Of a stretch of 45,271 bases of DNA, positions 771-28,930 are shown one piece after another. Source of the stretch: Sedimentimonas flavescens. Its GTDB lineage: Bacteria > Pseudomonadota > Alphaproteobacteria > Rhodobacterales > Rhodobacteraceae. The notes beneath the pieces were generated by a model, which worked only from the letters and a program-made list of their open reading frames with translations, did not search any database and was not told the DNA's origin. The stretch is taken from the NCBI RefSeq assembly GCF_019264375.1, contig NZ_JAHVAI010000016.1:1-45271 (forward strand), given 5' to 3'. Within the stretch, counting starts at the first letter, position 1. Each line of letters begins with the position of its first letter. The translations under genes were made by a program, and so were the position numbers.

Positions 771-800
771 TTGACAGCGCTTGGAACGTTCCACTATACG
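771..800 (+). promoter_or_regulatory. Sigma70-like promoter of the catabolic operon
   Basis: A perfect -35 box TTGACA lies at 771-776 and a -10-like box TATACG at 795-800, with an 18-bp spacer. Transcription would start near 807, about 22 bases before the GTG start at 829. The spacer contains the first TGGAACGTTCCA palindrome, and the second palindrome covers the predicted start point, which is classic architecture for repression by a LacI-family protein. Confidence 0.7.
782..793. promoter_or_regulatory. Operator 1: perfect palindrome TGGAACGTTCCA
   Basis: A 12-bp perfect inverted repeat with the central CG typical of LacI-family operators. It lies between the -35 and -10 boxes. An identical copy follows with a centre-to-centre distance of 21 bp, two helical turns, so two dimers would bind the same face of the DNA. 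The likely binder is the LacI-type regulator encoded at the 3' end of the same operon. Confidence 0.75.
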
Positions 801-802
801 AA

Positions 803-814
803 TGGAACGTTCCA
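803..814. promoter_or_regulatory. Operator 2: perfect palindrome TGGAACGTTCCA
   Basis: Second exact copy of the 12-bp palindrome. It covers the predicted transcription start and ends just before the GGAGGG ribosome-binding site at 817-822. I noticed no further exact copy in the window. Confidence 0.75.
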
Positions 815-828
815 ATGGAGGGCAGAAC

Positions 829-1833
829 GTGAAGTGGGCATTGCTCGGCGCCAGCACGATTGCTGGCCAATACATGGTCTCAGCAATACGTGCCCAAACA
901 GATGGCGCCGTGCGCTGGGTCGTGAGCGGCAAGGCCGAACGCGCCAGGGCCTTCGCGCAGGCGCACCGGATTGAGCTCTGGTCGACCTCCGTTGAAGAGG
1001 CGCTCGAGGATCAAGCCGTGCAGGCGGTCTACATCTCGACCACGAATGAAAAGCATTACCCGCTGGCGATGGCCGCGATTGGGGCAGGCAAGCACGTTCT
1101 TTGCGAGAAACCCCTCGCAATGGACGCCGCCGAGGCAGCCGAGATGGTTTCTGCGGCACGCAGCGCTGGCGTCACCTTGGCCGTGAACCATCACCTGCGC
1201 AGTGCGGGCAGTCACAAGGCCATTCGGGCGCTTATCACATCTGGTGCGCTCGGAAGGGTGTTGTCGCTTCGGCTGTTTCACGCCGTCCATCTTCCGGAGC
1301 ATCTTCGTGGCTGGCGTCTGGATAATCCCTCGGCCGGCGGCGGCGTTATCATGGATCTCACCGTTCATAACGCGGATACCGTGCGCTTCCTTCTCCGGGA
1401 AGACCCGGCATCTGTGATTGCGGAAACGGCGACATCCGGCATGGGAGCGGGAGTCGAAGACTCCGCCATGTCGGTTTGGACGATGCCATCCGGCGCCATG
1501 GTCTTCAGCCATGAAAGCTTCACCCATCCGTTCACCGAGTCGGGCATCGAAGTTCACGGCACCCAAGCGTCGGTCTTTGCGCGCGGGGTGATGGCTCAGG
1601 AACCGCTCGGACGGATCGAGTTGGTGTCCAAACAGGGTCGGGGCGAGATCTCGTTCGATGCGGCCGAGATTTACGGGTCCGTCATTGAGGATTTTCAAAG
1701 CGCAGTTGCCCGCCGCGCGTCACCCGCCGCGACCGGAACAGACGGGGCGAAATCGCTGATGGTCGCCCGTGCGGTGCATGACGCCGCCCGGACAGGCGCG
1801 CGCCAAACAATCAATTATGGAGAGATCGAATGA
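829..1833 (+). CDS. Gfo/Idh/MocA family NAD(P)-dependent oxidoreductase
   Basis: Predicted 334-aa cytoplasmic dehydrogenase of the glucose-fructose/inositol dehydrogenase family, which oxidises hydroxyl groups of sugars, cyclitols or related compounds with NAD(P). The N-terminus has a Rossmann fold beginning WALLGASTIAG. The family EKP motif is at residues 93-95 (CEKPLAMDAAEA) with the usual catalytic Lys94, and the substrate-domain D-x3-H-x2-D signature appears as MDLTVHNADTV. GTG at 829 is preferred because GGAGGG sits 6 bases upstream. A longer frame from 781 would run through the promoter and operators and is rejected. It is the first gene of the operon and its stop overlaps the next start by 4 bases. 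The exact substrate cannot be read from sequence. Confidence 0.88.
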   Translation: MKWALLGASTIAGQYMVSAIRAQTDGAVRWVVSGKAERARAFAQAHRIELWSTSVEEALEDQAVQAVYISTTNEKHYPLAMAAIGAGKHVLCEKPLAMDAAEAAEMVSAARSAGVTLAVNHHLRSAGSHKAIRALITSGALGRVLSLRLFHAVHLPEHLRGWRLDNPSAGGGVIMDLTVHNADTVRFLLREDPASVIAETATSGMGAGVEDSAMSVWTMPSGAMVFSHESFTHPFTESGIEVHGTQASVFARGVMAQEPLGRIELVSKQGRGEISFDAAEIYGSVIEDFQSAVARRASPAATGTDGAKSLMVARAVHDAARTGARQTINYGEIE

Positions 1834-3401
1834 GCAAGATCGTCAGCGCGGCGCAAGCGGCCGCTCGCATTGCCGATGGGGCCGTGGTGACGGTGTCTTC
1901 CTCGTCAGCGCTGGGTTGCCCCGACCTAGTCCTCAAAGCAATTGGCGCGCGCTTCGATGCCGAAGGCCATCCGCGGGAGCTGACCTCGATTCATCCTATC
2001 GCCGCGGGTGATATGTATGGCGTCAAAGGTGTCGACCATATCGCCAAGGATGGCTTGTTGTGCCGGATCCTCGGCGGGTCGTACCCATCTGGCCCGTCGT
2101 CCAAACCGATGCCGGAGATCTGGAAGATGATCGTCGAAAACCGGGTCGCCGCCTATAACGTCCCCTCGGGTATCCTCTTTGACATGGCGCGAGAAACGGC
2201 GGCAAATCGTCCCGGCGTGCTCACCAAAGTAGGTATTAACACTTTCGTGGACCCGATCCGCGAGGGCTGCGCGATGAATGACATGGGTGCAGCCGCTCCG
2301 ATCGTGAGACGCGTTGAGTTCGACGGCGACACATGGCTGCATTTCCCCAATATCGTGCCCGATGTCGCGATCCTGCGCGCGACCACGGCGGACGAACACG
2401 GCAATCTCACCTATGAGCACGAAGGGGCCTATCTTGGCGGTCTTGAGCAGGCGATCTGTGTCCGGAACCATGGCGGCCTCGTGATCGCTCAGGTCAGCCG
2501 CGTGACCAAGCGCGGTTCCTTGCGGCCCCATGACGTGCGCGTTCCCGGTCACCTTGTCGATCTGGTCGTGATCGATCCGGACCAGAAACAGACATGCGAA
2601 ACTCCTTACGATCCAGCAATCTCCGGCCAGATCATGCGGCCATGGGACAGCTTTTCACTGGCGGAGCGGGGCGTCGAAAAGATCATCGCGCGCCGCGCGG
2701 CGATGGAGCTTCGCCCCGGAATGACCGCCAACCTGGGTTTCGGTATCAGCGCAATGGTGCCGCGCATCTTGCTTGAGGAAGGCCATCCGGAAGCGGTTAC
2801 CTGGGCGGTCGAACAGGGCGCGGTCGGGGGTATTCCGTTGACGGGTTTCGCATTCGGTTGCTCATCGAACGCTGACGCCTTCGTGCCCTCGCCGCAGCAG
2901 TTCATCTACTTCCAGGGCGGCGGTTTTGACGTGTCGTTCCTGTCCTTCCTCGAAGTGGATGTCGAGGGCAACGTGAACGTTTCCAAGCTCGGGAAGAAGC
3001 CCTACCTCACGGCGGGATGCGGCGGCTTTGTCGACATCACCTCGGGCGCAAAGAAGATCGTCTTTTCGGGCTGGTTCGAGGCGGGTGCCCGGATCGAACT
3101 GACCTCCGAGGGGATCAAGGTTGAAGCTCCGGGCAAGTTTGCCAAGATGGTCGAAGCAGTCGAGCACGTCACCTTTTCCGGACAACGCGCCCGCGAGCTG
3201 GGGCAAGAGGTTCTCTATGTCACGGAGAGATGTGTCATGCGCCTCGCCGAAACGGGCCTCGTAGCAACCGAGATCATGCCCGGCATCGATCCTGAGCGCG
3301 ATATCGTGCAAGCTTCGGGGGGCCGCGTCTCAATCGCTCCGGATGCGATCACGCTGCCGATCTCGCTGCTGGCAGACGGGCCGATGGGGTGGGGCAAGTG
3401 A
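1830..3401 (+). CDS. Fused acyl-CoA:acetate/3-oxoacid CoA-transferase family protein
   Basis: 523 aa, the length of single-chain family I CoA-transferases such as YdiF and propionate CoA-transferase, in which the alpha and beta halves are fused. The alpha half (about 1-280) contains GGSYPSGPSSKP and DEHGNLTYE. The beta half starts near 290 with RRAAMELRPGMTANLGFG. Glu328 in WAVEQGAVGG matches the catalytic glutamate that forms the CoA-thioester intermediate. It would move CoA from acetyl-CoA or succinyl-CoA onto a carboxylic acid. It is translationally coupled to the dehydrogenase (ATGA overlap) and precedes a hydratase, so the likely acceptor is an acid made by the dehydrogenases of this operon. 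The substrate is inference. Confidence 0.88.
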   Translation: MSKIVSAAQAAARIADGAVVTVSSSSALGCPDLVLKAIGARFDAEGHPRELTSIHPIAAGDMYGVKGVDHIAKDGLLCRILGGSYPSGPSSKPMPEIWKMIVENRVAAYNVPSGILFDMARETAANRPGVLTKVGINTFVDPIREGCAMNDMGAAAPIVRRVEFDGDTWLHFPNIVPDVAILRATTADEHGNLTYEHEGAYLGGLEQAICVRNHGGLVIAQVSRVTKRGSLRPHDVRVPGHLVDLVVIDPDQKQTCETPYDPAISGQIMRPWDSFSLAERGVEKIIARRAAMELRPGMTANLGFGISAMVPRILLEEGHPEAVTWAVEQGAVGGIPLTGFAFGCSSNADAFVPSPQQFIYFQGGGFDVSFLSFLEVDVEGNVNVSKLGKKPYLTAGCGGFVDITSGAKKIVFSGWFEAGARIELTSEGIKVEAPGKFAKMVEAVEHVTFSGQRARELGQEVLYVTERCVMRLAETGLVATEIMPGIDPERDIVQASGGRVSIAPDAITLPISLLADGPMGWGK

Positions 3402-4165
3402 GCGCGGTCCATTTTCACCGCCACGGCAAAGTGGCCGAGTTGCGGCTTGATAACCCCGCCAAGATGAATGCTTTCACGGTCGAGATGCTGGTGCAACTTG
3501 CACAACATCTCGAAGCAATCGAGCGGGACGCATCCATCTTGGCGGTGCTTGTCACCGCCGAGGGTGAGAAAGTGTTCTGCACGGGGGCCGATATCAATGC
3601 TTGGGGGGATCTGTCCCCTGCCGCGTTTGCGCGCCACTGGGTGCGCGACGGCCATCGGATATTTGATCGACTGGCCCGCCTGTCCAAACCGACTATCGCG
3701 GTGCTTAACGGGCATGCCTTTGGCGGCGGTCTTGAACTCGCAGCGGCTTGCGACATTCGCGTCATGGCGCCCAAGGCAACCTTGGCTTTGCCCGAGGCAG
3801 GTGTCGGTATCGTTCCGGGCTGGTCGGGCACGCAACGCCTGATGCGTCTCCTGCCCGAACCGATGGTCAAGGAAATGGCTCTGTTCGGAAACCGGATCAA
3901 AGCGGATCGTGCATTGTGCTGCGGATTTGTTGCATCGGTGGACGATGATCCCCGAGCCGCCGCCGATGCCTTGCTCGAACGCGCGATCACCTTGTCGCCG
4001 CGTGCGGTCGAGATCTCCAAGTCCATGATCCACGCCGCTCAAGGCGAGGATCGGGGCGCGATGGTCGAAGCACTCGGCAGCGCCGCGATGGCGGCAACCT
4101 CGGATCGCGAAGAGGGCGTCACCGCCTTTCGCGAAAAACGTAAGCCAGATTTCTCAGGAAGATAA
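3398..4165 (+). CDS. Enoyl-CoA hydratase/isomerase family protein
   Basis: About 255 aa, a crotonase-fold enzyme that hydrates, isomerises or otherwise transforms a CoA thioester. The oxyanion-hole segments are FCTGADINAW and GHAFGGGLELAAACDI. Both catalytic glutamates of classical hydratases are present, Glu113 in GGGLELA and Glu133 in LPEAGVG, with the canonical spacing of 20. GTG at 3398 overlaps the upstream stop (GTGA) and follows a G-rich Shine-Dalgarno-like stretch; GTG at 3389 is an alternative adding three residues. Intact catalytic residues suggest a true hydratase acting on the product of the neighbouring CoA-transferase. The real CoA ester is unknown. Confidence 0.88.
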   Translation: MSAVHFHRHGKVAELRLDNPAKMNAFTVEMLVQLAQHLEAIERDASILAVLVTAEGEKVFCTGADINAWGDLSPAAFARHWVRDGHRIFDRLARLSKPTIAVLNGHAFGGGLELAAACDIRVMAPKATLALPEAGVGIVPGWSGTQRLMRLLPEPMVKEMALFGNRIKADRALCCGFVASVDDDPRAAADALLERAITLSPRAVEISKSMIHAAQGEDRGAMVEALGSAAMAATSDREEGVTAFREKRKPDFSGR

Positions 4166-4168
4166 CTC

Positions 4169-5695
4169 ATGTCCGACCTAAACATCCTCTCGGAACAAAC
4201 CGTCGACATGCCCGACGCGCCCTATCAGGCGCGGCATTTTATCGACGGAGAATTCGCGCAGAGCGCGGATGGGCAAAAATCGGACCGGGTTTCACCTTCG
4301 CATGGTGTGGTCGTGAGTCAGGCCGCGCTGGGGTCGAATGTCGAAACGGAAGCGGCGATCCGCTCTGCGCGCGCCGCGTTTGACGACGGTCGCTGGAGCC
4401 GCCTGCCCGCCAAGGATCGCGCAGCCATTCTGAACAGGATCGCTGACCTGATCGAGGCAAATGTCGAACGCCTCGCGGTGATCGAGACCCTTGAAAGCGG
4501 TAAACCCATCAGCCAGGCAAGGGGCGAGTGCGGCGGCGCGGCGGATCTTTGGCGATATGCGGCTTCGCTCGCGCGGACGGTGCATGGTGACAGCCACAAT
4601 GCCCTTGGCGATGACATGATGGGCGTCGTGTTGAAAGAGCCGATCGGCGTTGTCTCGATCATCACGCCCTGGAACTTCCCGTTCTGGATCCTCAGTCAGA
4701 AGCTTCCGTTCGCTCTTGCTGCCGGGTGTACCTGCGTGGTGAAGCCCTCCGAAGTCACGCCCTCGACAACAGCGATGCTGGGAGAGTTCCTGCAAGAAGC
4801 CGGTCTGCCCGCGGGCGTCTGCAACATTGTTCTGGGCTATGGCAATCCCGTCGGGAGTTTGATGACCACGCATGAGGATGTGGATATGGTCACGTTCACG
4901 GGCTCGACCGCCGTCGGCAAGCTGATCACGAAGTCCGCGGGCGAAACCCTGAAGAAGGTCGCTCTGGAACTGGGCGGCAAGAACCCACAGGTGATCTTCC
5001 CCGATGCGGACCTTGAGCAGGCGGCGGATGCGGTCACTTTCGGGATCTATTTCAACGTTGGCCAATGCTGCAACTCGTCCAGCCGCGTGATCGTGCATGA
5101 GGATGTGGCAGATGCCTTCGTGGCGCGCGTCGTCGCGCTGTCGCGCAAGGTTGTTTTTGGCAACCCGATGAACTCCGACACGCAGGTGGGCGCGATCGTG
5201 ACCACGGATCACCAGGCCAAGATTGATGGATACGTGCGCCAGGCCGTCGCGGCAGGAGCCGAGGTTTGTCTTGGCGGGCATATCATGTCGGTCCCCGGGC
5301 TTGGCACGCAGTTCTACGAACCCACGGTCGTGCGAGGCGTAACGCCCGATATGGCGATTGTGCGCGAAGAGGTTTTCGGGCCGGTTCTGACCGTCTTGAC
5401 GTTCAAGACCCTCGACGAGGCGATCGCGCTGGCAAACGACTCGACCTACGGCCTCTCGGCAGGGGTCTGGAGCGAGAATATCCATACCTGTCTCGAGTTC
5501 TGCCGGCGCGTCCAGGCAGGGACGGTCTGGACCAATACCTGGATGGATGGGTTCCCCGAGCTGACATTCGGCGGAATGAAGCAATCCGGTCAGGGCCGCG
5601 AGATCGGTAAATACGGTTTTGAGGAATTCCTTGAGGTGAAGTCCCTCGTGATGCGCATTGGCCGCAAGCGGGCACCTTGGGTGAGAACGGCATAA
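4169..5695 (+). CDS. NAD(P)-dependent aldehyde dehydrogenase
   Basis: 508-aa member of the ALDH superfamily, oxidising an aldehyde to a carboxylic acid. Visible motifs are the cofactor segment [18 protein letters not shown], the general base Glu267 in LELGGKNP and the catalytic Cys301 in GQCCNSSSR; the spacing equals that of Glu268/Cys302 in human ALDH2. The N-terminus is slightly longer than usual. ATG 4169 lies 3 bases after the hydratase stop, with AGGAAG upstream. In the operon it would follow a GMC alcohol oxidoreductase, turning the aldehyde into the acid used by the CoA-transferase. Betaine-aldehyde or vanillin-type dehydrogenases are close alternatives; specificity is not readable. 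Confidence 0.9.
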
Positions 5696-5748
5696 GCCCG
5701 CGAACCGGGATGCCGAAGAAACCAACGCGACATCAGGAGGAGACATCA

Positions 5749-7002
5749 ATGCGTGGTTATTTTGGAACGAAGACAGCTCTTGTCATGACTCTCATGGCGA
5801 CGACCGGCATGGCACATGCCGAGGACGTCGAAGTGCTGCACTGGTGGACGTCCGGCGGCGAAGCCTCGGCTCTCAACGTGCTGAAAGACGGTCTCGCTGC
5901 CGATGGTATCGGTTGGATCGACATGCCAGTCGCCGGTGGGGGCGGTGAATCGGCCATGACGACGCTGCGCGCACGTGTGACCTCTGGTGACGCGCCGACG
6001 GCAGTTCAGATGCTGGGCTACGACATTCAGGACTGGGCTGAAGAAGGCAAGCTTGCCAACCTCGACGCGGTTGCCGCTGAAGAAGGCTGGGATGCCGTTG
6101 TCCCGGCCGCTCTTCAGGCGTTCTCGAAATACGACGGCCATTGGGTCGCAGCCCCCGTCAATGTCCACTCGACGAACTGGGTCTGGGCGAACAAGGCCGT
6201 CCTTGATGAGCTCGGCATCGCGCAGCCGGCAACCTGGGAGGAATTCGTCGCGGCGATGCAGGCGGTCAAAGACAGCGGCCGCATCGCATTGGCTCATGGC
6301 GGGCAGGCCTGGCAGGATGCAACGATGTTCGATGGCATCGTTCTGTCGGTCGGTGGCGTGGACTTCTACAAGAAGGCTTTCATCGAACTTGACTCGGAAG
6401 CGCTGGGTTCCGAGCAGACGGTCGAAGCCTTCAACCGGATGGCGACCCTCCGCAGCTTTGCGGACGACAACTTCTCTGGCCGCGACTGGAACCTGGCATC
6501 GGCGATGGTCATCAATGGCGATGCCGCTTTCCAGATCATGGGCGATTGGGCGAAGGGTGAATTCCTGAACGCAGGCAAGGTGCCCGGCACCGATTTCCTG
6601 TGCTTCCGTCTTCCGGGCACCCAGGGCGATGTGAGCTTCAACTCCGACCAGTTCGCCATGTTTGCGCAGACCGATACCGCCGCGCAGGCCGCGCAAGCCG
6701 AGATGGCGCGCGCGATCATGTCGCCGGGCTTCCAGTCGGCGTTCAACGTGGTCAAAGGCTCGGTTCCCGCGCGCACCGATGTCCCGAACGACGCGTTTGA
6801 CGCCTGTGGAAAGCAAGGCATGGTGGAGCTTGCGGAAGCTTCGGCAAATGGGACGCTGGTTGGCTCCATCGCCCATGGCCATGCCAATCGCGCAGCGGTC
6901 AAGAATGCGATCTATGACGTCGTGACCGCCCATTTCAACGGCGAGTACGACGCCGCGACCGCCACCAAAGAACTGGTGAACGCGGTCGAAGCCGCTCAGT
7001 AA
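5749..7002 (+). CDS. Sugar-type ABC transporter substrate-binding protein (CUT1 family)
   Basis: 417 aa. A Sec signal peptide [18 protein letters not shown] ends in AHA at about residue 23, giving a periplasmic mature protein starting [14 protein letters not shown]. That opening is typical of extracellular solute-binding proteins family 1 of the glucose/mannose (GtsA-like) type. ATG 5749 has a strong AGGAGGAG ribosome-binding site; a longer frame from 5677 is not needed. It delivers substrate to the two permeases and ATPase encoded next. A strong hairpin (7015-7041) follows, which usually raises expression of the binding protein over the permeases. The ligand is unknown; the family binds mono- and oligosaccharides or polyols. 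Confidence 0.92.
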
Positions 7003-7014
7003 TATGAGTTGCCT

Positions 7015-7041
7015 GCGAAGGCGGCCACCCGCCGCCTTCGC
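7015..7041 (+). terminator. Intercistronic stem-loop after the binding-protein gene
   Basis: Perfect 11-bp stem GCGAAGGCGGC (7015-7025) with GCCGCCTTCGC (7031-7041) and a 5-base CACCC loop. No T-tract follows, so it is more likely an mRNA-stabilising or attenuating hairpin between the binding-protein and permease genes than a full terminator. This is a known arrangement in sugar ABC operons such as malE-malF. Confidence 0.65.
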
Positions 7042-7128
7042 GATCATCGGAATGGTTCAGTGAGTGTTCGGGCCATTGCCGCGAGATAGCAATCAAGATG
7101 GCCGCAACCTCGCGGCGTAGGAGGAACC

Positions 7129-8025
7129 ATGGCGCAACGTGCCCCGGAGGCGGATTTTCGCACTCGCCTGCAAGAATGGATTCCAAAGCTGGTCCTGTCG
7201 CCCTCGCTGGCCGCGATGTTGGTCTTTGTCTATGGTTTCATTGCCCTTACGATTTATCTCAGCGTTTCCGACTCCAAGATGCTGCCCAGCTACGACCTGG
7301 TCGGCTTTGAGAACTACGCAAAACTGTGGAACCTGTCTGCCTGGTGGACAGCGGTCGTCAACCTTCTCATCTTCTCTTCGCTCTACATCGGCATTTGCAC
7401 GGCCATCGGCCTGACGCTTGCGATCTTGCTTGATCAGAAGATCCGCGGCGAAGGCATACTTCGTCCAATCTACCTCTATCCGATGGCGCTGAGCTTTATC
7501 GTGACCGGCACGGCGTGGAAGTGGATCATGGATCCCGGCATCGGAATCGAGAACACGATGCACCTTTGGGGTTGGGCGAGCTTCGAGTTCAACTGGATCA
7601 AGGACCGGGACATGGCGATCTACACCGTCGTTATCGCCGCGGTCTGGCAGACGTCCGGCTTTGTCATGGCGATGTTCCTTGCGGGCTTGCGCGGCATTGA
7701 CAACGAGATCCTCAAAGCGGCCCAGATCGATGGCGCTTCGAACTGGAGCCTCTATCGCCGGATCGTCATCCCTCTGCTCCGTCCGGCCTTTCTCTCGGCC
7801 TTCGTCATTCTCGCCCACCTTGCGGTGAAGTCCTATGACCTGATCATCGCGCTCACCGGAGGCGGACCGGGGCGCGCGACAGAGCTGCCGGCGACTTTCA
7901 TGTATTCCTACACGTTTACGCGCAACTCGATGGGAATTGGCGCCGCTTCGGCCGTGATCATGCTGATGACCATTGCCGCAATCATGACCCCGTATCTCTA
8001 CGCTGAGCTGAAGGAGAAGAAGTGA
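7129..8025 (+). CDS. Sugar ABC transporter permease, first subunit (MalF/GtsB-like)
   Basis: 298-aa inner-membrane protein with about six hydrophobic segments. The first is near residues 25-50 (LVLSPSLAAMLVFVYGF). The cytoplasmic EAA loop that docks the ATPase is visible as EILKAAQIDGASNWSLYRR near residues 199-217, followed by IPLLRP. Length and motif fit the MalF/UgpA/GtsB side of CUT1 importers without the long MalF periplasmic loop. ATG 7129 has AGGAGG at 7119-7124. It ends in a TGATG junction with the second permease. Confidence 0.92.
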   Translation: MAQRAPEADFRTRLQEWIPKLVLSPSLAAMLVFVYGFIALTIYLSVSDSKMLPSYDLVGFENYAKLWNLSAWWTAVVNLLIFSSLYIGICTAIGLTLAILLDQKIRGEGILRPIYLYPMALSFIVTGTAWKWIMDPGIGIENTMHLWGWASFEFNWIKDRDMAIYTVVIAAVWQTSGFVMAMFLAGLRGIDNEILKAAQIDGASNWSLYRRIVIPLLRPAFLSAFVILAHLAVKSYDLIIALTGGGPGRATELPATFMYSYTFTRNSMGIGAASAVIMLMTIAAIMTPYLYAELKEKK

Positions 8026-8903
8026 TGGCCGTAGCTGAACAAGATACCGCCGTCAGGACCGGAGGGATCACCCGCGCCTTCATCTACGGTATCCTGCTTC
8101 TCTTCATGTTCTTCTACCTGATGCCGTTGTTCGTCATGATCGCCAACTCGCTGAAGCCACTGGCCGAGATCACTGGCGGGAACATGATGGCCCTTCCGGA
8201 TACATGGACCGCCGAACCCTGGAGGCAGGCATGGTCTTCGGCGCAGATCGGCGTGGAGCCGACAGGGTTGAAGCCCTACTTCATCAACTCGATCCTGATG
8301 GTGGTGCCATCGGTCGCGATCTCGACGGTTCTTGGCGCACTCAACGGCTACGTGCTGACAAAGTGGAGCTTTCGCGGCGACAAGATCATCTTCGGTCTGC
8401 TGCTGTTTTCGTGCTTCATCCCGTTTCAAATCGTGCTGATCCCGATGGCCACGGTGCTCGGGAAACTGGGTCTGGCGGGCTCCATTCCCGGCCTGATCCT
8501 GGTCCATGTCGTTTACGGCATCGGTTTCTCGACGCTCTACTACCGCAATTACTACGCCGCCTTTCCGACGGAACTGGTGCGGGCCGCCATGATTGACGGT
8601 GCGGGGTTCTTCCGGATTTTCTGGCGGATCATGCTTCCGGTTTCGGGCCCGATCACCGTGGTCTGCGTCATCTGGCAATTCACCAATATCTGGAACGACT
8701 TCCTGTTCGGTGCATCGTTTGGCGGGCAGACACAGCCGATGACCGTTGCGCTCAACAACCTCGTCCAGTCCTCGACGGGCGTCAAAGAATACAACGTTCA
8801 CTTTGCAGGGGCGATCCTCGCCGCGCTGCCAACCCTCCTCGTCTATATCGTCGCAGGTCGCTACTTCGTGCGCGGTCTGATGGCAGGCTCTGTGAAAGGA
8901 TAA
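8025..8903 (+). CDS. Sugar ABC transporter permease, second subunit (MalG/GtsC-like)
   Basis: 292-aa inner-membrane protein with about six transmembrane segments, the first at roughly residues 16-40 (FIYGILLLFMFFYLMPLFV). The EAA loop is ELVRAAMIDGAGFFRIFWRI, then MLPVSGP. ATG 8025 shares one base with the preceding stop (TGATG) and has GGAG 8 bases upstream; a GTG one codon earlier is less likely. It pairs with the preceding permease and the following ATPase. Confidence 0.92.
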   Translation: MAVAEQDTAVRTGGITRAFIYGILLLFMFFYLMPLFVMIANSLKPLAEITGGNMMALPDTWTAEPWRQAWSSAQIGVEPTGLKPYFINSILMVVPSVAISTVLGALNGYVLTKWSFRGDKIIFGLLLFSCFIPFQIVLIPMATVLGKLGLAGSIPGLILVHVVYGIGFSTLYYRNYYAAFPTELVRAAMIDGAGFFRIFWRIMLPVSGPITVVCVIWQFTNIWNDFLFGASFGGQTQPMTVALNNLVQSSTGVKEYNVHFAGAILAALPTLLVYIVAGRYFVRGLMAGSVKG

Positions 8904-8907
8904 AGCC

Positions 8908-10020
8908 ATGGGATTTCTCGATATCCAGAACGTCACCAAGTCATATGGTTCTGTCGAGGTTCTTCATCGCGTGGACATCGAAGTACAGGAGGGCGAGTTC
9001 CTCGTGCTGGTCGGGCCGTCGGGTTGCGGAAAGTCCACCCTGCTCAACATGATCGCGGGATTGGAAAGCATTACCTCGGGCGACATTTCGATCAAGGGCC
9101 GGGTGGTCAATGGTGTGCATCCCTCAAAGCGCAACATTGCCATGGTGTTCCAAAGCTACGCGCTTTACCCGAACATGACCGTCGGGCAGAACATGACATT
9201 CGGGCTCGAAATGCATGGCACCCCGAAAGCGGAGCGCGACCGGGCCCTGAAAGATGTCGCAAAGCTCTTGCAGATCGAGAACTTGCTGGACAGGAAGCCG
9301 GGGCAATTGTCCGGCGGACAGCGGCAGCGCGTCGCCATGGGCCGCGCCCTCGTCCGTGATCCGGACGTCTTCCTGTTCGATGAACCCTTGTCCAACCTTG
9401 ATGCCAAACTGCGCGTCGATATGCGGACAGAGATCAAGAAGCTGCACGAGAAGCTAAAGACGACGATCGTTTATGTGACGCATGACCAGATCGAGGCGAT
9501 GACGCTCTCCACCCGGATTGCGGTCATGTATCAGGGCTATGTGCAGCAGTTGGGCACGCCGAAAGAAATCTACGACACCCCGGCCAATGTCTATGTGGCG
9601 ACATTCATGGGCAGCCCTGCAATGAACGTGCTGCCGGCAAAAGTCGTCATGCATGAGGGGGTGCCCTATGCCCAGATCAAGGATGCGGGCGGTGTGGAGA
9701 AACTCCTGAAGTTCAGTCAGGCCAATATGTCTGACTGGTCTGGCAAGGAAATCCTGCTCGGCATACGCCCCGAGTCGATCACCGACCCGGACGGAGCGGA
9801 TCGGAACTCCAACAATATCGTGCCGTTTCGCAACCGGATCGGCGTTACGGAGCCGGCGGGCGCAGATACGTTCGTCACCATGGAGCTTGGCGGCATCGAC
9901 ATTGTCGCGCGCATGCGCGCCGATGCGAATGTCGGCGCCGGGCAAGAGTTCGATTTCGCGATCAACATGGACAAGGCCGTCGCCTTCGATCCCAAGACCG
10001 AAGAACGCATCAAGCCATGA
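8908..10020 (+). CDS. Sugar ABC transporter ATP-binding protein (UgpC/MalK/GtsD type)
   Basis: 370 aa. The nucleotide-binding domain has Walker A GPSGCGKST near 39-47, the Q-loop VFQSYALYPNM, signature LSGGQRQRVAMGRALVRDP, Walker B VFLFDEPLSNLDAKLR and switch HDQIEAMTL. A C-terminal regulatory TOBE/OB region (about 240-370) is typical of MalK-type subunits that serve CUT1 importers. It energises uptake by the two preceding permeases. The start has AAGGA upstream, 4 bases after the permease stop. The stop overlaps the first GMC gene (ATGA). Confidence 0.93.
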   Translation: MGFLDIQNVTKSYGSVEVLHRVDIEVQEGEFLVLVGPSGCGKSTLLNMIAGLESITSGDISIKGRVVNGVHPSKRNIAMVFQSYALYPNMTVGQNMTFGLEMHGTPKAERDRALKDVAKLLQIENLLDRKPGQLSGGQRQRVAMGRALVRDPDVFLFDEPLSNLDAKLRVDMRTEIKKLHEKLKTTIVYVTHDQIEAMTLSTRIAVMYQGYVQQLGTPKEIYDTPANVYVATFMGSPAMNVLPAKVVMHEGVPYAQIKDAGGVEKLLKFSQANMSDWSGKEILLGIRPESITDPDGADRNSNNIVPFRNRIGVTEPAGADTFVTMELGGIDIVARMRADANVGAGQEFDFAINMDKAVAFDPKTEERIKP

Positions 10021-11507
10021 ATGGCGCGGACGTAATCATCGTCGGGTCCGGAATGGGGGGCGCCACCATGGCGGCGTCTCTTGCCGGATCGGGGCGGCGC
10101 GTCCTGATCCTTGAGCGCGGGGACTATCTGCGCCCCTCCGCGCATGACCGCGATGACAGATCAATCTTTGTCGACGGCCATTACCGGCCCGACGAAGAGT
10201 GGCTGGACGGCGAGGGGCGGCCATTCAACCCGGGCAACTACTACTATGTCGGTGGAAACTCGAAGTTCTACGGCGCGGTTCTCATCCGCTATCGGCGCGA
10301 AGACTTTTCTCCGCGCAAGCATATGGGGGGCACAACGCCCGGATGGCCGATTTCCTATGACGATCTTGAGCCTTTCTATTGCCGTGCCGAGCACTTGTAC
10401 TCTGTCCGCGGAAATCTTGGGGATGACCCGACAGAGCCGCCCCATTCGTCTCCCTATCCGTTCGGGCCGGTTCAGGATGAGCCCGCGATAGCGGATCTGC
10501 GTGCGCGGCTGACCGCTCTCGGGTTGCACCCGAGTCGACTCCCGCTTGGCGTGGATCTTGAGCAATGGCTTTCGCGCGCAAGAACGCCATGGGATGCATT
10601 CCCCGACACCAATGGCGGCAAGCTGGACGCGGAGACCGCAGGCCTGAAGGCTGCGTTGCAGCATGCCAACGTAACCTTGCGGACGCAGGCCCGCGTTCGC
10701 CGCCTGATCTCGGGGGAGGGCAACCGCATCGCCGGGGTTGAACTGACCTCCGGAGAGACCTTGTCGGCTCCGATCGTGGTTCTGGCGGCGGGTGCCGTGC
10801 AAACTGCGGCGCTGCTGCTGGCCTCGGCAAACGAAGCCAACCCCAATGGGCTTGCCAATCGCTCAGACCAGGTCGGCCGCAACTTCATGAACCACAATTG
10901 CTCGGCGATCCTGGCGCTGCACCCGTTTCGACGCAATGACTCGGTCTATCAAAAGACGCTGGCGCTGAATGACTTCTACCTGACGGGCGGGCCGAACGGT
11001 GAACCCTTGGGCAACGCGCAGATGCTTGGCAAGATTTCCGGCGCGATCCTTCAGGCGTCTTCGCCCTTGCCGCGATCCATCGCAAACTGGGTCGCGCGCC
11101 ACTCGCTCGACATCTACGCGATGTCCGAAGATCTGCCGAACCCGGAAAGCCGCGTCACCCTGGAGCACGGGCGGATCAGACTGGATTGGAGACGATCCAA
11201 CTGGGATGCCCACTTGGCACTGGTCTCTCGGCTCAAGAGCGTGCTGCGCAAGGCCGGCTACCCGATAGTTCTGTCCCGCCCGTTTGATCGCCGCACCCCC
11301 TCGCACCAGTGCGGCACGGCGCGCATGGGGTGCGACGGGGCCTCCAGCGTTGTGGATGCCAATTGCCGCAGCCACGACCATTCGAACCTTTACATCACCG
11401 ATGCGTCGGTCCTGCCGACTTCGGCCGCGGTGAACCCCGCATTGACCATCGCGGCCCTGTCGATCCGGGCCGCGGAGCATATCGAACGAAACGCGAAGGC
11501 TGCTTAG
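10017..11507 (+). CDS. GMC family FAD-dependent oxidoreductase, bacterial sugar-oxidase-like subgroup
   Basis: 496-aa flavoprotein. The N-terminal dinucleotide fold is DVIIVGSGMGGATMAASLAG, with LILERGD closing the ADP-binding unit. A conserved segment NYYYVGGNSKFYGAVLIR lies near 75-92. The C-terminal GMC domain has His430 in SHQCGTARMG and Asn473 in NPALTIAAL, the usual His/Asn pair with a spacing of 43. There is no signal peptide, so it is probably cytoplasmic. It oxidises a hydroxyl of an alcohol or sugar; this type resembles pyranose or glycoside 3-oxidase-like proteins (recalled, not searched). It overlaps the ATPase stop and is followed by a second, only distantly similar GMC enzyme. 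Confidence 0.86.
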   Translation: MNGADVIIVGSGMGGATMAASLAGSGRRVLILERGDYLRPSAHDRDDRSIFVDGHYRPDEEWLDGEGRPFNPGNYYYVGGNSKFYGAVLIRYRREDFSPRKHMGGTTPGWPISYDDLEPFYCRAEHLYSVRGNLGDDPTEPPHSSPYPFGPVQDEPAIADLRARLTALGLHPSRLPLGVDLEQWLSRARTPWDAFPDTNGGKLDAETAGLKAALQHANVTLRTQARVRRLISGEGNRIAGVELTSGETLSAPIVVLAAGAVQTAALLLASANEANPNGLANRSDQVGRNFMNHNCSAILALHPFRRNDSVYQKTLALNDFYLTGGPNGEPLGNAQMLGKISGAILQASSPLPRSIANWVARHSLDIYAMSEDLPNPESRVTLEHGRIRLDWRRSNWDAHLALVSRLKSVLRKAGYPIVLSRPFDRRTPSHQCGTARMGCDGASSVVDANCRSHDHSNLYITDASVLPTSAAVNPALTIAALSIRAAEHIERNAKAA

Positions 11508-11552
11508 ACCGCACCTTGCGACAAGGTCGGCCGATTTGAGGAGGGCAACGAA

Positions 11553-13142
11553 ATGTCCAGAGGTTACGATTTCATCATCATCGGCGGCGGTTCTGCCGGC
11601 TCGGTCCTTGCTGGTCGGTTGTCGGAGGACCCGTCGGCACAAGTCCTTTTGCTGGAAGCTGGCGGCAGCGATCGGCATCCGTTTTATCATCTGCCGGCCG
11701 GCTTCGCGAAGATGACGAAGGGCATCGGTTCGTGGGGCTGGGACACGGTTCCACAGAAACACATGCAAAACAAAGTCTTCCGATACACGCAGGCCAAGGT
11801 CATCGGCGGCGGATCGGCCATCAATGCGCAGATCTACACGCGCGGCAATGCGCAGGACTATGACGACTGGCGGCAGATGGGCTGCGATGGCTGGGGGTAT
11901 GAGGACGTTCTGCCCTACTTCAAGAAGGCGGAAGACAACGAGACCTACGAGAACCGCTTCCACGGCAAGGGAGGACCTCTTGGCGTGAGTGAGCCACGCG
12001 CGCCCTTGCCGGTTTGCGAAGCCTATTTTGAGGCAGCGGCCGCGTTGGGTATTCCGCGAAACATGGATATCAACGGCGAAAAGCAGGACGGCGTCTGCTA
12101 TTACCAGCTGACGCAGCGCAATGTCCGCCGTTCGTCAGCCTCCATGGCGTATGTGACCCCCAATCGGCACCGCAAGAACCTCACGGTCAGGTTGGGTGCG
12201 CAGGTCCGCCGTCTGATCGTCGAGAACGGACGTGCTACTGGCGTTGAGCTGATGGACGGTACCCGGCTCTCCGCAGGTTCAGAGGTTCTGCTTGCCTCGG
12301 GCGCGATCGGGTCGCCGCGCCTCTTGCAGTTGTCCGGCATCGGGCCCGCCGACCATCTGCAGGCACTGGGCATTCAGCCCGCATTCGACCAGCCACAAGT
12401 TGGAGAAAACCTCCAGGATCACCTGGACCTGTATTGCATCAGCGAACTGTCCGGACCCTACAGCTATGATCGCTACGCGAAGCCGCATTGGGCGGCGATC
12501 GCGGGCCTGCAGTACATCTTTGGCCGCAAGGGGCCGGTTGCCTCCTCGCTCTTTGAAACCGGCGGCTTCTGGTACGCTGATCCCGAGGCCCGCTCGCCCG
12601 ACATTCAGTTCCACCTCGGGCTGGGCACGGGTATCGAGCACGGTGTCGCAGCGATGCCTCAAGGTGGCATCACGCTCAACTCGTGCTATCTGCGCCCTCG
12701 CTCGCGCGGGACGGTTCGTCTGCAGAGTGCAGATCCGGCGAAAGCGCCCTTGATCGACCCGAACTATCTTCAGGATCCACGGGATCGGGAGATGTCTATC
12801 CGCGGTCTGAAACTGACGCAGGAAATCTCGGCACAGCCAGCGCTATCCAAATACATTCTGGCGGAGCGTTTGCCGGGGCCGGATGTGAAGACCGACGAAG
12901 ACTATTTCGACTTCATTTGCCAGCACTCCAAGACGTCGCACCATTGTGTCGGCACCTGCCGTATGGGTTCCGATGATGCGGCCGTCGTGGATACGTCACT
13001 CCGGTTCAACGGAATTGACGGCCTTCGGATCGTCGACAACTCGATCATGCCGACGGTGATTTCTTCAAACACAAACGCCGCAGCGATCATGATTGGTGAG
13101 AAGGCCGCCGATATGATCAAGGCAGAACACGGAATGGGCTGA
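11553..13142 (+). CDS. GMC family choline dehydrogenase-like flavoprotein
   Basis: 529-aa FAD enzyme of the BetA/AlkJ type. The N-terminus FIIIGGGSAGSVLAGRLSED binds FAD, and KVIGGGSAINAQIYTRG is the GMC signature 1 region near 90-106. The catalytic pair is His464 in SHHCVGTCRMG and Asn508 in SSNTNAAAIMIGEKA, spacing 44 as in choline oxidase. It oxidises a primary alcohol to an aldehyde, probably passing electrons to the respiratory chain. ATG 11553 has GAGGAGGG upstream. The expected aldehyde partner enzyme is encoded in the same operon. True choline activity is doubtful, since no betI or betB-like pairing is evident. Confidence 0.88.
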   Translation: MSRGYDFIIIGGGSAGSVLAGRLSEDPSAQVLLLEAGGSDRHPFYHLPAGFAKMTKGIGSWGWDTVPQKHMQNKVFRYTQAKVIGGGSAINAQIYTRGNAQDYDDWRQMGCDGWGYEDVLPYFKKAEDNETYENRFHGKGGPLGVSEPRAPLPVCEAYFEAAAALGIPRNMDINGEKQDGVCYYQLTQRNVRRSSASMAYVTPNRHRKNLTVRLGAQVRRLIVENGRATGVELMDGTRLSAGSEVLLASGAIGSPRLLQLSGIGPADHLQALGIQPAFDQPQVGENLQDHLDLYCISELSGPYSYDRYAKPHWAAIAGLQYIFGRKGPVASSLFETGGFWYADPEARSPDIQFHLGLGTGIEHGVAAMPQGGITLNSCYLRPRSRGTVRLQSADPAKAPLIDPNYLQDPRDREMSIRGLKLTQEISAQPALSKYILAERLPGPDVKTDEDYFDFICQHSKTSHHCVGTCRMGSDDAAVVDTSLRFNGIDGLRIVDNSIMPTVISSNTNAAAIMIGEKAADMIKAEHGMG

Positions 13143-13145
13143 GCC

Positions 13146-13472
13146 ATGGTACGTCACATCGTTCTGATACGTTTCAAACCAGAGCTGAGCGAGGCGCGCA
13201 TCGCCGAGCTGTTTGCGGAACTGCATGACATCGAGGGCAAGATCCCGGGCCTTCTGAGCGTGACCTCGGGCCGCAGCGAGAGCCCCGAGAAGATGGAGCG
13301 CGGCTACATGCACGGCTTCGTCGTGGATTTCGCGGATTGGGAGGCCCTTCAGGCTTACCAGGACAACGCCGATCATCAGGCGCTGGGCGCAAAGCTGGTA
13401 GAGGGTGCGGTGGGCGGCAAAGAGGGCATTCTGTGCTTTGATCTTCCTACAGTCGCGGCGCAGGCGCTTTGA
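13146..13472 (+). CDS. Dabb (stress-responsive alpha/beta barrel) domain protein
   Basis: 108 aa forming a single Dabb ferredoxin-like domain, recognised by the opening RHIVLIRFKPELSE and the later HGFVVDFADWEALQAYQ followed by H-Q-A-L. Such proteins dimerise; some are cyclases or sugar-modifying accessory enzymes, most are uncharacterised. It starts 3 bases after the GMC stop, so it is clearly part of the operon. Its role could be handling a reactive keto or aldehyde intermediate of the flavoenzymes. That is inference from position only. Confidence 0.8.
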   Translation: MVRHIVLIRFKPELSEARIAELFAELHDIEGKIPGLLSVTSGRSESPEKMERGYMHGFVVDFADWEALQAYQDNADHQALGAKLVEGAVGGKEGILCFDLPTVAAQAL

Positions 13473-13535
13473 TAAGCATTCAAATGCCTTAAAGAGTGCT
13501 ACAAGACCCAATCGAACCTCGAAGGCAGAGACAAG

Positions 13536-14561
13536 GTGACCATGAATCGTAGGCCGACAATCATTGATGTTGCCCGCAAAGCCGGCGTCTCCAAGTCGAC
13601 CGTGAGCCTTGTCTTGCAAAACAGCCCGTCGGTCCGGGAGGACACACGCCAGGCGGTCCGGCAGGCGATGGCCGATATCGGTTATGTCTACAACCGCTCT
13701 GCCGCGAACATGCGCATGTCAAATGCCGGGCTTATCGGTTTGGTCATTAACGATCTGCGCAACCCGTTCTTCACCGAGTTTGCGACCTCGCTTCAGATGG
13801 CTCTGGCCGAGAAGGGCTATTCGACCGTCATCGCCAACGCGGACGAGAATGCAGACCTGCAAGAGCAGGTGGTCAGTTCGATGATCGAGCACGGCGTTTC
13901 GGCGTTGATCATCTGTCCGACATATGGGGACACGAAGGCAACGTTCGATGCGATCGCGCGCGCTGGCATACCGACCATGCAGATGCTGCGCCAGGTTGAT
14001 GACAGGCTTGAGCTGTTCCCCTTCATTGCGCCGGACTACGTGTCAGGCAGCAGGGAGGCGACACGTCACCTGATCGAGATGAAGGCCCATCGGATAGCCT
14101 TCGTCGGCGGGCTTGAGGGCCGCGCGGTCACGGAAGAGCGCAAGGCGGGTTATCTCGAGGTGCTACGAGAGGCCGGGATGAAGCCGGTCGTCATGACGGG
14201 AAAATCAAGCCGTGAGTTCGGTCGAAACGCGGCGAAGAAGCTGACGGAGGAGCATCCCGACATCGATGCGGCGGTCTGCTTCAATGACCTCGTTGCTCTC
14301 GGAATGCTGTCGGGCTTCTACGAGATCGGGCGAAAGGTTGGCGAGGATTTCCTGATCGTCGGATTCGACGACATTCAGGATGTCGCGCAGACCTATCCGG
14401 CTTTGTCTTCAGTGCGTTGCGACATCGCTGCGATTGGGGCGCGGGCCGCGAATACCGTCGTGAACTGGCTCGAACATCAAGAAACCCCGCAGCCCGCGAT
14501 GCGCACGCCGGTTTCACTATCCGTCCGACAATCCAGTCAAATGAAGAAGCGACGCACCTAG
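13536..14561 (+). CDS. LacI-family transcriptional regulator of the catabolic operon
   Basis: About 341 aa. An N-terminal HTH (TIIDVARKAGVSKSTVSLVL) and hinge helix lead into a periplasmic-binding-protein-like effector domain from GLIGLVINDLRNPFFTE to the C-terminus (VGFDDIQDVAQTYPALSSVR). GTG 13536 has GAAGG about 10 bases upstream; ATG 13542, two codons on, is an alternative with AAGGTG. It is the last gene of the operon on the same strand, 63 bases after the Dabb gene. It is the natural candidate to bind the twin TGGAACGTTCCA sites upstream of the first gene, so expression would be feedback-controlled. The inducer is probably the imported substrate or an early intermediate. Confidence 0.9.
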   Translation: MTMNRRPTIIDVARKAGVSKSTVSLVLQNSPSVREDTRQAVRQAMADIGYVYNRSAANMRMSNAGLIGLVINDLRNPFFTEFATSLQMALAEKGYSTVIANADENADLQEQVVSSMIEHGVSALIICPTYGDTKATFDAIARAGIPTMQMLRQVDDRLELFPFIAPDYVSGSREATRHLIEMKAHRIAFVGGLEGRAVTEERKAGYLEVLREAGMKPVVMTGKSSREFGRNAAKKLTEEHPDIDAAVCFNDLVALGMLSGFYEIGRKVGEDFLIVGFDDIQDVAQTYPALSSVRCDIAAIGARAANTVVNWLEHQETPQPAMRTPVSLSVRQSSQMKKRRT

Positions 14562-21534: not shown

Positions 21535-21541
21535 TCAGGCG
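21528..21541. repeat. 14-bp perfect palindrome containing both convergent stop codons
   Basis: CGCCTGATCAGGCG is a perfect palindrome. Its centre TGATCA contains the ptsN stop (TGA, plus strand) and the sulfotransferase stop (TGA, minus strand), with no base between the genes. Folded, it gives a 5-bp stem with a GATC loop and no T-tract, so it is at best a weak bidirectional terminator. Confidence 0.6.
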
Positions 21542-22902
21542 CGCCAATCCCCAAAACCGAATTGCAGGAAGTCGCGCGGATAAGCCTCTCGCGCGGCTTT
21601 TTCCATTTCGGGCTGCCAGATATCGGCCAGCTTGACCGGCCCGCTATCCGGGTCGGGGGCGGTGAAGGCCGGTGTCTCCAACCCCGCGGCGCCCGCCAGA
21701 TAGGCCAGATCCTCGGCCAGCCGATCTTCGCGCGCGAGCAAGTCGGGCGCACCGATCTGCGAGATCGACTGAACCATATTCGATTGGCTCGCCCAAAGCG
21801 GCTGCACCGGCAGCTTGGTCTGCCCGCCCAGATGCGGCTTGAGCCAGCGCAGCCATGCCAGAAACGCCGGGCCGTGATCGTCGAGTTTCATCTTATAGCT
21901 TTTCGTCAGAACCCGGCGCGTCTCTTCAAAACTCGGGGCCTCAAGCAGCGTGCAGAAGGCCTGATGAGCGCGCAAGAGCGGGTGGCGCAGCACGGTGAAG
22001 CTGCGATGGCCGGGGTGACGGCGCTTCCATTGGCGCAGGGTCTTCTGCGAGAAGCCATCCTCGACCTCGCCCAACTGCTCCAGCCACGCGCGGATCGCCG
22101 CGTCCGGCGCAGGGCGGATCGGCATGAACAACAGTCCGCCCCCGCGCAACGCCATGAAACCGGGCACATTCGGCCCCCGGCGCGGTTCAAAATTCGGCGT
22201 GCGCGCCAGGTTGAAATGATCGAGCCGCGAAAGCGCCGCCTCCATCGCCGCCGGGTTGGAAACCTTGTCTTCCAACGGTTCGGGATTCTGTGGCACAAGC
22301 TTGCTGGAAAGCGTGTCCAGACGCGCCTCGACTCCAAGCCATTGCGCCAGCCCGTTCAGCACGGACAGATCGGGCACATCCTCATAATCGAGATAGAAGG
22401 CCGTCTGCCCCGAGGTCTGAAGCGCGTGCAAGACACGCAACTGGAACTGCTGCAAGGTTTCCAGGTGGGCGGCATACTCAGCCGCGTCAAACTTGGCCAG
22501 CGCGGCGATGCGATGGCGCGCATCGGCAAGCCGCCACTGGCCGGTCGCCCGCGCGATCTTGAGGCTGATATAGCTTTCCAGCGGATTGCGGTTCAGAACG
22601 ATCTTGGCGCAGCGCGGATCGTCCAGCATCGCGCCAAGCACGCGCGGATCGTGATCAGGGAAATAGCGGCAGCCGTTCAGACCGGGCTCGGCGCCGATCC
22701 TTTGCCACAGCACCAGCGGGTCGGCATCGCGCTCGGCCAGACTCATTCCCAGAAGCGTGTCGCGCTTGGGGTAGCCGATCAGCGCGGGGTTGAAGGCCTC
22801 GCCATGGCAGGTCACGCCCGCCAGCGCGTTCAGCGCGGCTTCGAGCAGGTTCGAGCCCGTCCGCATCGCCGCAAGGATGACGAAGCTGTCGAAGCGCGCC
22901 AT
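21535..22902 (-). CDS. Sulfotransferase family protein
   Basis: 455 aa. The N-terminal part has the 5'-PAPS-binding P-loop-like start FVILAAMRTGSNLLEAALN and the 3'-phosphate-binding region IVLNRNPLESYISLKIA, as in NodH/NoeE-type carbohydrate sulfotransferases. The second half (about 230-455) has FTVLRHPLLRAHQAFCTLL, which resembles a second, degenerate sulfotransferase-like domain. It would transfer sulfate from PAPS to a glycan. It is the last gene of a minus-strand glycosyltransferase block (3 bases after the GT14 gene), and cysQ, which removes the by-product PAP, is at the upstream end of the block. Confidence 0.82.
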   Translation of the reverse strand: MARFDSFVILAAMRTGSNLLEAALNALAGVTCHGEAFNPALIGYPKRDTLLGMSLAERDADPLVLWQRIGAEPGLNGCRYFPDHDPRVLGAMLDDPRCAKIVLNRNPLESYISLKIARATGQWRLADARHRIAALAKFDAAEYAAHLETLQQFQLRVLHALQTSGQTAFYLDYEDVPDLSVLNGLAQWLGVEARLDTLSSKLVPQNPEPLEDKVSNPAAMEAALSRLDHFNLARTPNFEPRRGPNVPGFMALRGGGLLFMPIRPAPDAAIRAWLEQLGEVEDGFSQKTLRQWKRRHPGHRSFTVLRHPLLRAHQAFCTLLEAPSFEETRRVLTKSYKMKLDDHGPAFLAWLRWLKPHLGGQTKLPVQPLWASQSNMVQSISQIGAPDLLAREDRLAEDLAYLAGAAGLETPAFTAPDPDSGPVKLADIWQPEMEKAAREAYPRDFLQFGFGDWRA

Positions 22903-22905
22903 CGG

Positions 22906-24606: not shown

Positions 24607-24615
24607 GCCCATGTC

Positions 24616-25626: not shown

Positions 25627-25668
25627 TCCGCCGCTCCGTCCACTTCAGGCGCTGTTCAGCGAAGCCTT

Positions 25669-27880: not shown

Positions 27881-27883
27881 GGG

Positions 27884-28777: not shown

Positions 28778-28828
28778 TACTCACCCGATATTTGCAGGCG
28801 GCGCCATGCCGCCCTTGCGGTTGGCGCG

Positions 28829-28858: not shown

Positions 28859-28930
28859 GAAGTGCCCCCTGCGGCCGAAACATGCCTCGCGGAAACTTGC
28901 TTGGAGTGAAAGATTTGCGCGAGCGGGGTG

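Follow-up and report, generated by a model that had tools for sequence, protein, structure and literature searches.

A stretch of 45,271 nucleotides from Sedimentimonas flavescens (Rhodobacteraceae), referred to here as the window, carries an operon that combines a sugar-type ABC importer with oxidoreductases and enzymes of CoA thioester chemistry. Its twelve genes encode a Gfo/Idh/MocA oxidoreductase (gene 1), a CoA-transferase (CoAT), a crotonase, an aldehyde dehydrogenase (ALDH), the binding protein, two permeases and the ATPase of the importer, two GMC oxidoreductases (GMC1 and GMC2), a Dabb protein and a LacI-family regulator. A previous sequence-only reading took them for a self-contained system for an unknown substrate. 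Which compound would such an operon degrade, and to which product? Our analysis indicates that the substrate class is probably the 1,5-anhydrohexitols, namely 1,5-anhydro-D-glucitol (AG), 1,5-anhydro-D-fructose (AF) and 1,5-anhydro-D-mannitol (AM). As a whole scheme, a LacI-controlled, aerobic and CoA-dependent operon leading from these compounds to 2-keto-3-deoxy-D-gluconate (KDG) is the likeliest reading, with an even chance of being correct.

Substrate of the operon

Gene 1 was 49% identical to the 1,5-anhydro-D-fructose reductase (AFR) of Sinorhizobium meliloti. Its top PDB matches were the AFR structures 2glx and 4koa (Table 1), and the next match reached 97 bits. The residues K110, D192, H196, S49 and R54 of the gene product (P0001) coincide with the same residues of S. 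meliloti AFR; we take the lysine, aspartate and histidine to be catalytic and the serine and arginine to be of the NADPH type, in role as in position. Gene 1 would thus be of the AFR type and would reduce AF to AM. A homologous operon of S. meliloti encodes a protein that aligns to 4koa over all 333 residues with one visible difference (2glx, 625 bits), and judged by this alignment a 1,5-anhydro-D-fructose reductase gene lies within that operon. With an AFR homologue here and the AFR gene there, the substrate is probably not unknown. The AFR-type gene held the same operon position in Rhodobacteraceae, in Rhizobiaceae and in the one Paraburkholderia examined.

The binding protein was of the glucose type. 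Its AlphaFold2 model (pLDDT 86.4) had as top Foldseek match 4r2b 'with bound glucose' (65% identity, TM-score 0.90), followed by eight rows of glucose- or glucose/galactose-binding protein structures. AG is glucose minus the anomeric hydroxyl. An operon for polyethylene glycol or terpenoids was rejected, the importer being of the glucose type. The S. meliloti gene SMc04396, at first considered possibly related, is reported to be dextrin-induced (PMC4960864) and was not used.

Promoter and tandem operators

Two copies of the palindrome TGGAACGTTCCA lie across a putative sigma-70-type promoter, one within its spacer and one just 3' of the -10 element. In the window by itself, a count of two matches at a tolerance of two mismatches was not above chance, as 52 of 100 shuffles also reached two; the significance of the operators rests on their being exact, paired and conserved, and not on this match count. 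The whole genome contained four exact copies forming two pairs, one at the operon promoter and one on contig C13 (29057/29079), and two further places with one mismatch. Of 390 sampled genomes of the order, 21 contained the exact tandem pair, at 22 sites in total. In every one of the 21 a pair stood directly before the operon, whose leading gene was Gfo in 12 and CoAT in 9; the one remaining site was the C13 pair of S. flavescens itself. A reversed control pattern matched in five of the 390 genomes (G167, 8 places; G244, 10; G345, 1; G352, 1; G389, 36), none of which carries the exact pair.

A set of 85 homologous loci was made up of five plasmid regions and the best 80 of 309 CoAT relatives in genome contigs. 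At up to three mismatches per pair, 72 of these loci had a pair, each adjoining Gfo/AFR, CoAT or the Gfo2 gene described below; 13 loci were without, and three sets of block-shuffled loci gave none. In 75 of 84 pairs, a total that includes overlapping double pairs at some loci, a hexamer resembling the -35 element (one mismatch at most) started 10-13 bp upstream of the first palindrome; for comparison, 5.7% of 5000 random 20-mers hold such a hexamer at any position. These tandem palindromes across the promoter support the LacI-type control predicted by the sequence-only reading, and the LacI of the operon would be the protein that contacts these candidate operators.

A second operon behind the same operator

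The C13 pair lies 5' of three genes encoding a second Gfo-type protein (Gfo2), an FAD protein of 697 residues (FAD700) and a kinase of the PfkB type. The best NCBIfam model of the kinase was NF052444 (2-dehydro-3-deoxygluconokinase) with 261.8 bits, the next best reaching 109.9; since the 400-bit cut-off of the model was not attained, the kinase is filed as KdgK-like only. The sole other matches to it in the genome had 30% identity. An aldolase for 2-keto-3-deoxy-6-phosphogluconate (KDPG) is present in the genome. KDG had been named as product, from stereochemistry and with the aldolase-like and glycerate-kinase genes of rhizobial operons already seen, before the KDG-kinase-like gene was found. 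The presence of KdgK alone was rejected as decisive evidence because many alphaproteobacteria have the Entner-Doudoroff pathway; the weight lies on the shared operator and on the in-operon position of the gene in relatives. The operon is not self-contained, as this second operon with its KDG-kinase-like gene shares the operator. The earlier statement that no kinase is present holds for the window and fails beyond it, where a KDG-kinase-like gene belongs to the same predicted regulon and lies inside the operon in 6 of the 85 loci.

Gfo2 matched best, over its full length, the model NF052479 for levoglucosan dehydrogenase, and with 297.7 bits against a cut-off of 650 it was rejected as a levoglucosan dehydrogenase. 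Nine of 292 genomes of the order carry a FAD700 match at E <= 1e-150. CoAT occurred at 77% identity or more in 44 genomes, one of them with a partial match (G156), and these include all nine with FAD700 (hypergeometric 1.9e-8, ignoring shared ancestry); the two genes lay within 15 kb of each other in eight of the nine. The wider operon was seen in six of these genomes (G010, G032, G053, G096, G099 and G158), and only operator and CoAT in G002 and G136. The AlphaFold2 model of FAD700 had a mean pLDDT of 48 and was left out of the fold search. In one genome (G158:C81:206070-208142, locus L156) the FAD700 match contains one in-frame TAG and has no KdgK match beside it.

Homologous loci and their variants

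The 85 loci were chosen by CoAT, many end before the operon does, and gene matches were counted at 38% identity or more. CoAT and crotonase were present in all 85, followed by ALDH (80), binding protein (76), GMC1 and each permease (75), ATPase (74), a Gfo or AFR type (68), GMC2 (67) and a short-chain dehydrogenase/reductase (SDR, 46). Rarer genes were Dabb (20), LacI (10), FAD700 (7), KdgK (6), Gfo2 (5), DUF993 (5) and glycerate kinase (2). The association of the operon genes is not due to chance. The operon is not unique: homologous operons recur in alphaproteobacteria and in at least one Paraburkholderia, where tblastn gave a similar arrangement with no GMC1 match.

On pSymB of S. meliloti Ak57 the order is LacI, AFR, CoAT, crotonase, ALDH, binding protein, two permeases, ATPase, GMC1, SDR, GMC2 and glycerate kinase, with DUF993 divergent. 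Very similar arrangements were seen in Rhizobium ACO-34A, Roseibium (viewed as far as GMC1) and Peteryoungia. A Bradyrhizobium plasmid locus (H20, L120), whose gene table lists no more than Gfo and a single GMC, stands outside the 85-locus count. Nine of the 85 loci (L042, L047, L048, L049, L061, L066, L074, L107 and L108) have a further match to the binding protein, at 47-51% identity, situated between the genes for permease 2 and the ATPase; this suggests that one importer serves more than one ligand. On a Paraburkholderia largidicola plasmid (L119), a PLSDB resistance prediction of a VIM-type beta-lactamase (8756-9190) is the sole annotation in the stretch.

KdgK lies directly 5' of CoAT in six of the 85 loci (L060, L064, L069, L071, L090 and L113), and a second operator pair precedes Gfo2 in five of them, the exception being L064, whose contig starts too late. 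When 12 longer stretches were added (97 loci), Gfo2/FAD700/KdgK genes without SDR were found in 14 loci, SDR alone in 39 and SDR with DUF993 in nine; one locus (L090) combined the former set with SDR, and 34 loci, many of them incomplete, had neither. The loci are not all independent. Two contigs are viewed twice (L052 and L164; L077 and L174), and without the two repeats the counts are 14, 38, 9, 1 and 33. Long exact stretches are common to L048 and L050 and to L108 and L112, less so to L076/L079, L094/L100 and L095/L104. The Gfo2/FAD700/KdgK set and SDR thus rarely share a locus. DUF993 (PF06187) was tied to the SDR-type operon (L062, L115, L116, L118, L119, L168, L169, L174 and L175) and in none of the 97 loci occurred with the Gfo2/FAD700/KdgK set. 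Its single strong PDB match was the uncharacterised 4dnh, and a role as KDG aldolase is no more than a possibility, with matches to dihydrodipicolinate synthase at E 0.33 or worse. The word DUF993 was absent from the open-library literature searched. The S. flavescens genome gave no DUF993 match in a search that gave none in control genomes either, so that its absence is unproved.

Proposed pathway

In the proposed pathway, the glucose-type ABC importer would bring in the anhydrohexitol unphosphorylated. GMC1 would oxidise AG at C2 to AF and gene 1 would reduce AF to AM, which together would amount to a net epimerisation at C2. GMC2 and ALDH would convert C6 to a carboxylate, and CoAT would turn this acid into its CoA thioester, making H5 more acidic. 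The crotonase could then eliminate the 4-hydroxyl group, comparable to the action of a polysaccharide lyase on a uronate, and hydration of the 4,5-enol ether would open the ring to KDG, a 3-deoxy-2-ulosonate. In S. flavescens, KdgK from the C13 operon with its identical tandem operator and KDPG aldolase would supply an Entner-Doudoroff ending. Other lineages would use an alternative ending made up of SDR and DUF993, in some cases with glycerate kinase. We infer all enzymatic steps, the chemistry after the acid included. Directly observed are the gene order and its conservation, the shared operator sequences, the AFR gene in the homologous operon and a gene for a KDG-like kinase that follows the shared operator and recurs in the operons of relatives. 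The import of an unphosphorylated sugar-like compound, its oxidation to an acid and the activation with CoA had already been suggested by the sequence-only reading and gain support here.

Stereochemistry bears on the early steps. Fischer bookkeeping leads from AM to the D-erythro product, D-KDG, and from AG to the L-threo product; the detour from AG via AF to AM would have its reason in this, because only inversion at C2 yields D-KDG. The usual sugar-acid dehydratases bind an alpha-hydroxy acid, and an alpha-alkoxy acid cannot be dehydrated by them. In rings of gluco and manno configuration H5 and O4 stand gauche to each other, an arrangement consistent with syn elimination by crotonases. That this is an undescribed aerobic pathway, in which the C6 acid of a 1,5-anhydrohexitol loses its 4-hydroxyl group to a crotonase as a CoA thioester, the ring ether is opened to D-KDG, a flavin-reductase pair inverts C2 and two endings (FAD700/KDG kinase or SDR/DUF993/glycerate kinase) are exchangeable, has a chance somewhat short of even. 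Among the open-library matches listed, none was recognised as describing the operon as a pathway, the 2006 primary anhydrofructose paper lying outside the coverage.

Some known systems are related to the scheme. The CaiB/CaiD carnitine system likewise joins a CoA-transferase to a dehydratase of the crotonase family; as it works without a thiolase, CoA can be used catalytically. The CoA-transferase of that system is of class III, whereas the one encoded here is of class I (YdiF type) and its substrate would be a cyclic sugar acid. The KDG-kinase-like gene and the KDPG aldolase ending recall the Entner-Doudoroff, non-phosphorylative KDG and uronate lyase routes, although entry would here be by CoA-activated elimination from an alpha-alkoxy acid and not by an enolase- or IlvD-type dehydratase or a polysaccharide lyase. 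The importer shares fold and family with glucose ABC importers (GtsA-type; 4r2b, 8hqq and 5dvf) at 45-65% identity but differs in context, which would be anhydrohexitol catabolism and not glucose uptake. The AFR of S. morelense and S. meliloti (structures 2glx and 4koa) and the anhydrofructose catabolism reported for S. morelense are also close, gene 1 being an AFR homologue and the enzyme gene lying in the homologous S. meliloti operon. Anaerobic gut bacteria degrade AG and AM, the same substrate class, by uptake through a phosphotransferase system (PTS) and glycyl-radical enzymes (YbiW/PflD), according to a 2025 review (PMC12441222). In contrast, the operon encodes an ABC importer, flavin- and NAD(P)-dependent oxidoreductases and CoA chemistry without phosphorylation on entry, and neither a PTS importer nor a glycyl-radical enzyme was found among its twelve genes.

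Alternative explanations

Several observations weigh against this route to KDG. The scheme assigns no enzyme to the hydration of the enol ether, leaves Gfo2 and FAD700 without a place, and ends on a kinase whose specificity is not certified at its score below the family cut-off. No KdgK was seen in 5 of the 15 FAD700 loci among the 97 (L044, L164, L166, L167 and L173), and the S. meliloti locus (29 kb seen) has SDR, DUF993 and glycerate kinase, not KdgK. No AFR-type gene lies between operator and CoAT in 9 of the 21 exact-pair genomes, and 17 of the 85 loci show none, some being incomplete at that end. A glucose-type binding protein, moreover, does not tell AG from glucose. The same chemistry might act on another glucose-like pyranose, such as levoglucosan, a different anhydro- or deoxy-sugar or a glycoside, with the AFR-like enzyme working on a related keto sugar. 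Gene 1, being 49% identical to AFR, may have another specificity, relatives of the binding protein bind glucose or galactose, Gfo2 has a levoglucosan dehydrogenase as its best, sub-threshold model, and the second binding protein of some loci hints at further ligands. We nevertheless regard another pyranose as unlikely, given that AFR-type genes keep their operon position across families and that D-KDG follows from AM by stereochemistry.

A conflict with published work concerns the fate of AM. In the review (PMC12441222), Rhizobiaceae are described as reducing AF to AM, from which a P450-like enzyme yet to be identified forms mannose by hydroxylation at C1 (S. morelense S-30.7.5, citing Kuhn et al. 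2006), and the aerobic step beyond anhydromannitol is called unidentified. AF and AM would then be the substrates, a P450-like enzyme would be encoded elsewhere, and the CoA, ALDH and GMC genes would serve another or a side route. On contig C45 the S. flavescens genome does carry P450 genes, at two sites. However, no P450 was found in 99 sequences (the window, the 97 loci and the C13 region) by tblastn with these two P450s or by a haem-motif scan, which divergent P450s could escape, and the annotation of four stretches surrounding AFR-type genes lists no P450, the PLSDB gene tables being incomplete. A route to mannose differs from what the operon encodes (ALDH, GMC, CoAT and crotonase), and it leaves unexplained CoAT and crotonase, together in all 85 loci, as well as the KDG-kinase-like gene; we consider it improbable. 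Least probable of all is a version along the lines of the sequence-only reading, in which the CoA ester, once hydrated, would undergo beta-oxidation-like cleavage and yield central metabolites directly. The pair of CoAT and crotonase would suit it, but Pfam revealed neither a thiolase nor a hydroxyacyl-CoA dehydrogenase among the twelve genes, and the shared operator precedes a kinase of the KDG type.

Gene content of the operon and of the remaining window

All twelve reading frames were open on the plus strand in the order reported earlier, and Pfam confirmed the family of each protein (Gfo/Idh/MocA, CoA-transferase, crotonase, ALDH, SBP_bac_1, two BPD_transp_1, ABC_tran, two GMC, Dabb and LacI). 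The sequence-only reading had described them as unidirectional with overlaps or short gaps, which is borne out after correction of two starts; the intergenic distances are, in order, -4, -13, 3, 53, 126, -4, 4, -4, 45, 3 and 63 bp. GTG 829 is the more likely start of gene 1 because TTG 781 falls at the operator and because position 829 corresponds to the start of the S. meliloti homologue. For the binding protein, ATG 5749 is the probable start, followed by a stretch resembling a signal peptide. CoAT has a fused A+B architecture (PF01144, 87 bits), with 2ahu (YdiF) as nearest structure over residues 4-521. E116 and E136 of the crotonase, presumably the two catalytic glutamates, were invariant in 10 of 10 aligned homologues. 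The NCBIfam score of GMC2 was below the cut-off of 605 bits.

Table 1 Features of the operon, its promoter region and the second operon
Feature	Coordinates	Strand	Remarks
Putative sigma-70-type promoter	771..800	+	TTGACA 771-776, 18-bp spacer, TATACG 795-800
LacI operator candidate 1, TGGAACGTTCCA	782..793	unstranded	palindrome within promoter spacer
LacI operator candidate 2, TGGAACGTTCCA	803..814	unstranded	palindrome just 3' of -10
Gfo/Idh/MocA oxidoreductase, AFR-like (gene 1)	829..1833	+	PDB 2glx 322 bits, 4koa 317 bits; start corrected to GTG 829
Fused class I CoA-transferase (CoAT), YdiF/FadX-like	1830..3401	+	PF01144; PDB 2ahu YdiF 332 bits
Crotonase (enoyl-CoA hydratase/dehydratase)	3389..4165	+	PF00378
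ALDH, sorbosone-dehydrogenase-like	4169..5695	+	PDB 3u4j 548 bits; L-sorbosone dehydrogenase 7w5l 506 bits
CUT1 periplasmic binding protein, glucose-binding type	5749..7002	+	PDB 4r2b 583 bits
CUT1 permease 1	7129..8025	+	PF00528
CUT1 permease 2	8022..8903	+	PF00528
CUT1 ATPase, MalK/UgpC-like	8908..10020	+	PF00005, OB_MalK
GMC1, ring-alcohol oxidising type	10017..11507	+	PDB matches include FAD glucose dehydrogenase, fructose dehydrogenase, pyranose oxidase
GMC2, choline-dehydrogenase/alcohol-oxidase-like (primary alcohol)	11553..13142	+	NCBIfam NF002550 555.6 bits
Dabb (stress-responsive A/B barrel) protein	13146..13472	+	PF07876
LacI-family regulator	13536..14561	+	PF00356, PF00532
FAD700, 697-residue flavoprotein, fumarate-reductase/aspartate-oxidase type	L127 12301-14394		shares operator

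Positions 1-770 of the window hold no complete open reading frame of at least 90 amino acids, frames that run off the end being outside the list. The genes 3' of LacI are of other kinds and include an Ig-like protein, an exonuclease, a SIS-CBS protein and Lpt-type genes. A glycan- or capsule-like run on the minus strand (21535-31757) comprises glycosyltransferases, a DUF5927 branching-type enzyme, an epimerase, a nucleotidyl- and a cytidylyltransferase and an inositol-phosphatase-like gene. Within it, ARAGORN called a tRNA-Phe of 72 bases (22760-22831, plus strand) that lies in long open frames of both strands and may be a false call.

Significance

According to the review (PMC12441222), 1,5-anhydroglucitol is one of the main human polyols, and a build-up of its 6-phosphate accompanies the neutropenia seen in two inherited diseases. 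The known bacterial degradation, by PTS uptake and glycyl-radical enzymes, needs strict anaerobiosis, and it is considered unlikely there that a probiotic would work unless an aerobic enzyme for AG is found. The operon offers a full candidate gene set for an aerobic 1,5-anhydro sugar route in soil and marine bacteria, and the scheme makes a testable stereochemical prediction. If true, it would be an unusual case of the opening of a sugar ring via CoA chemistry.

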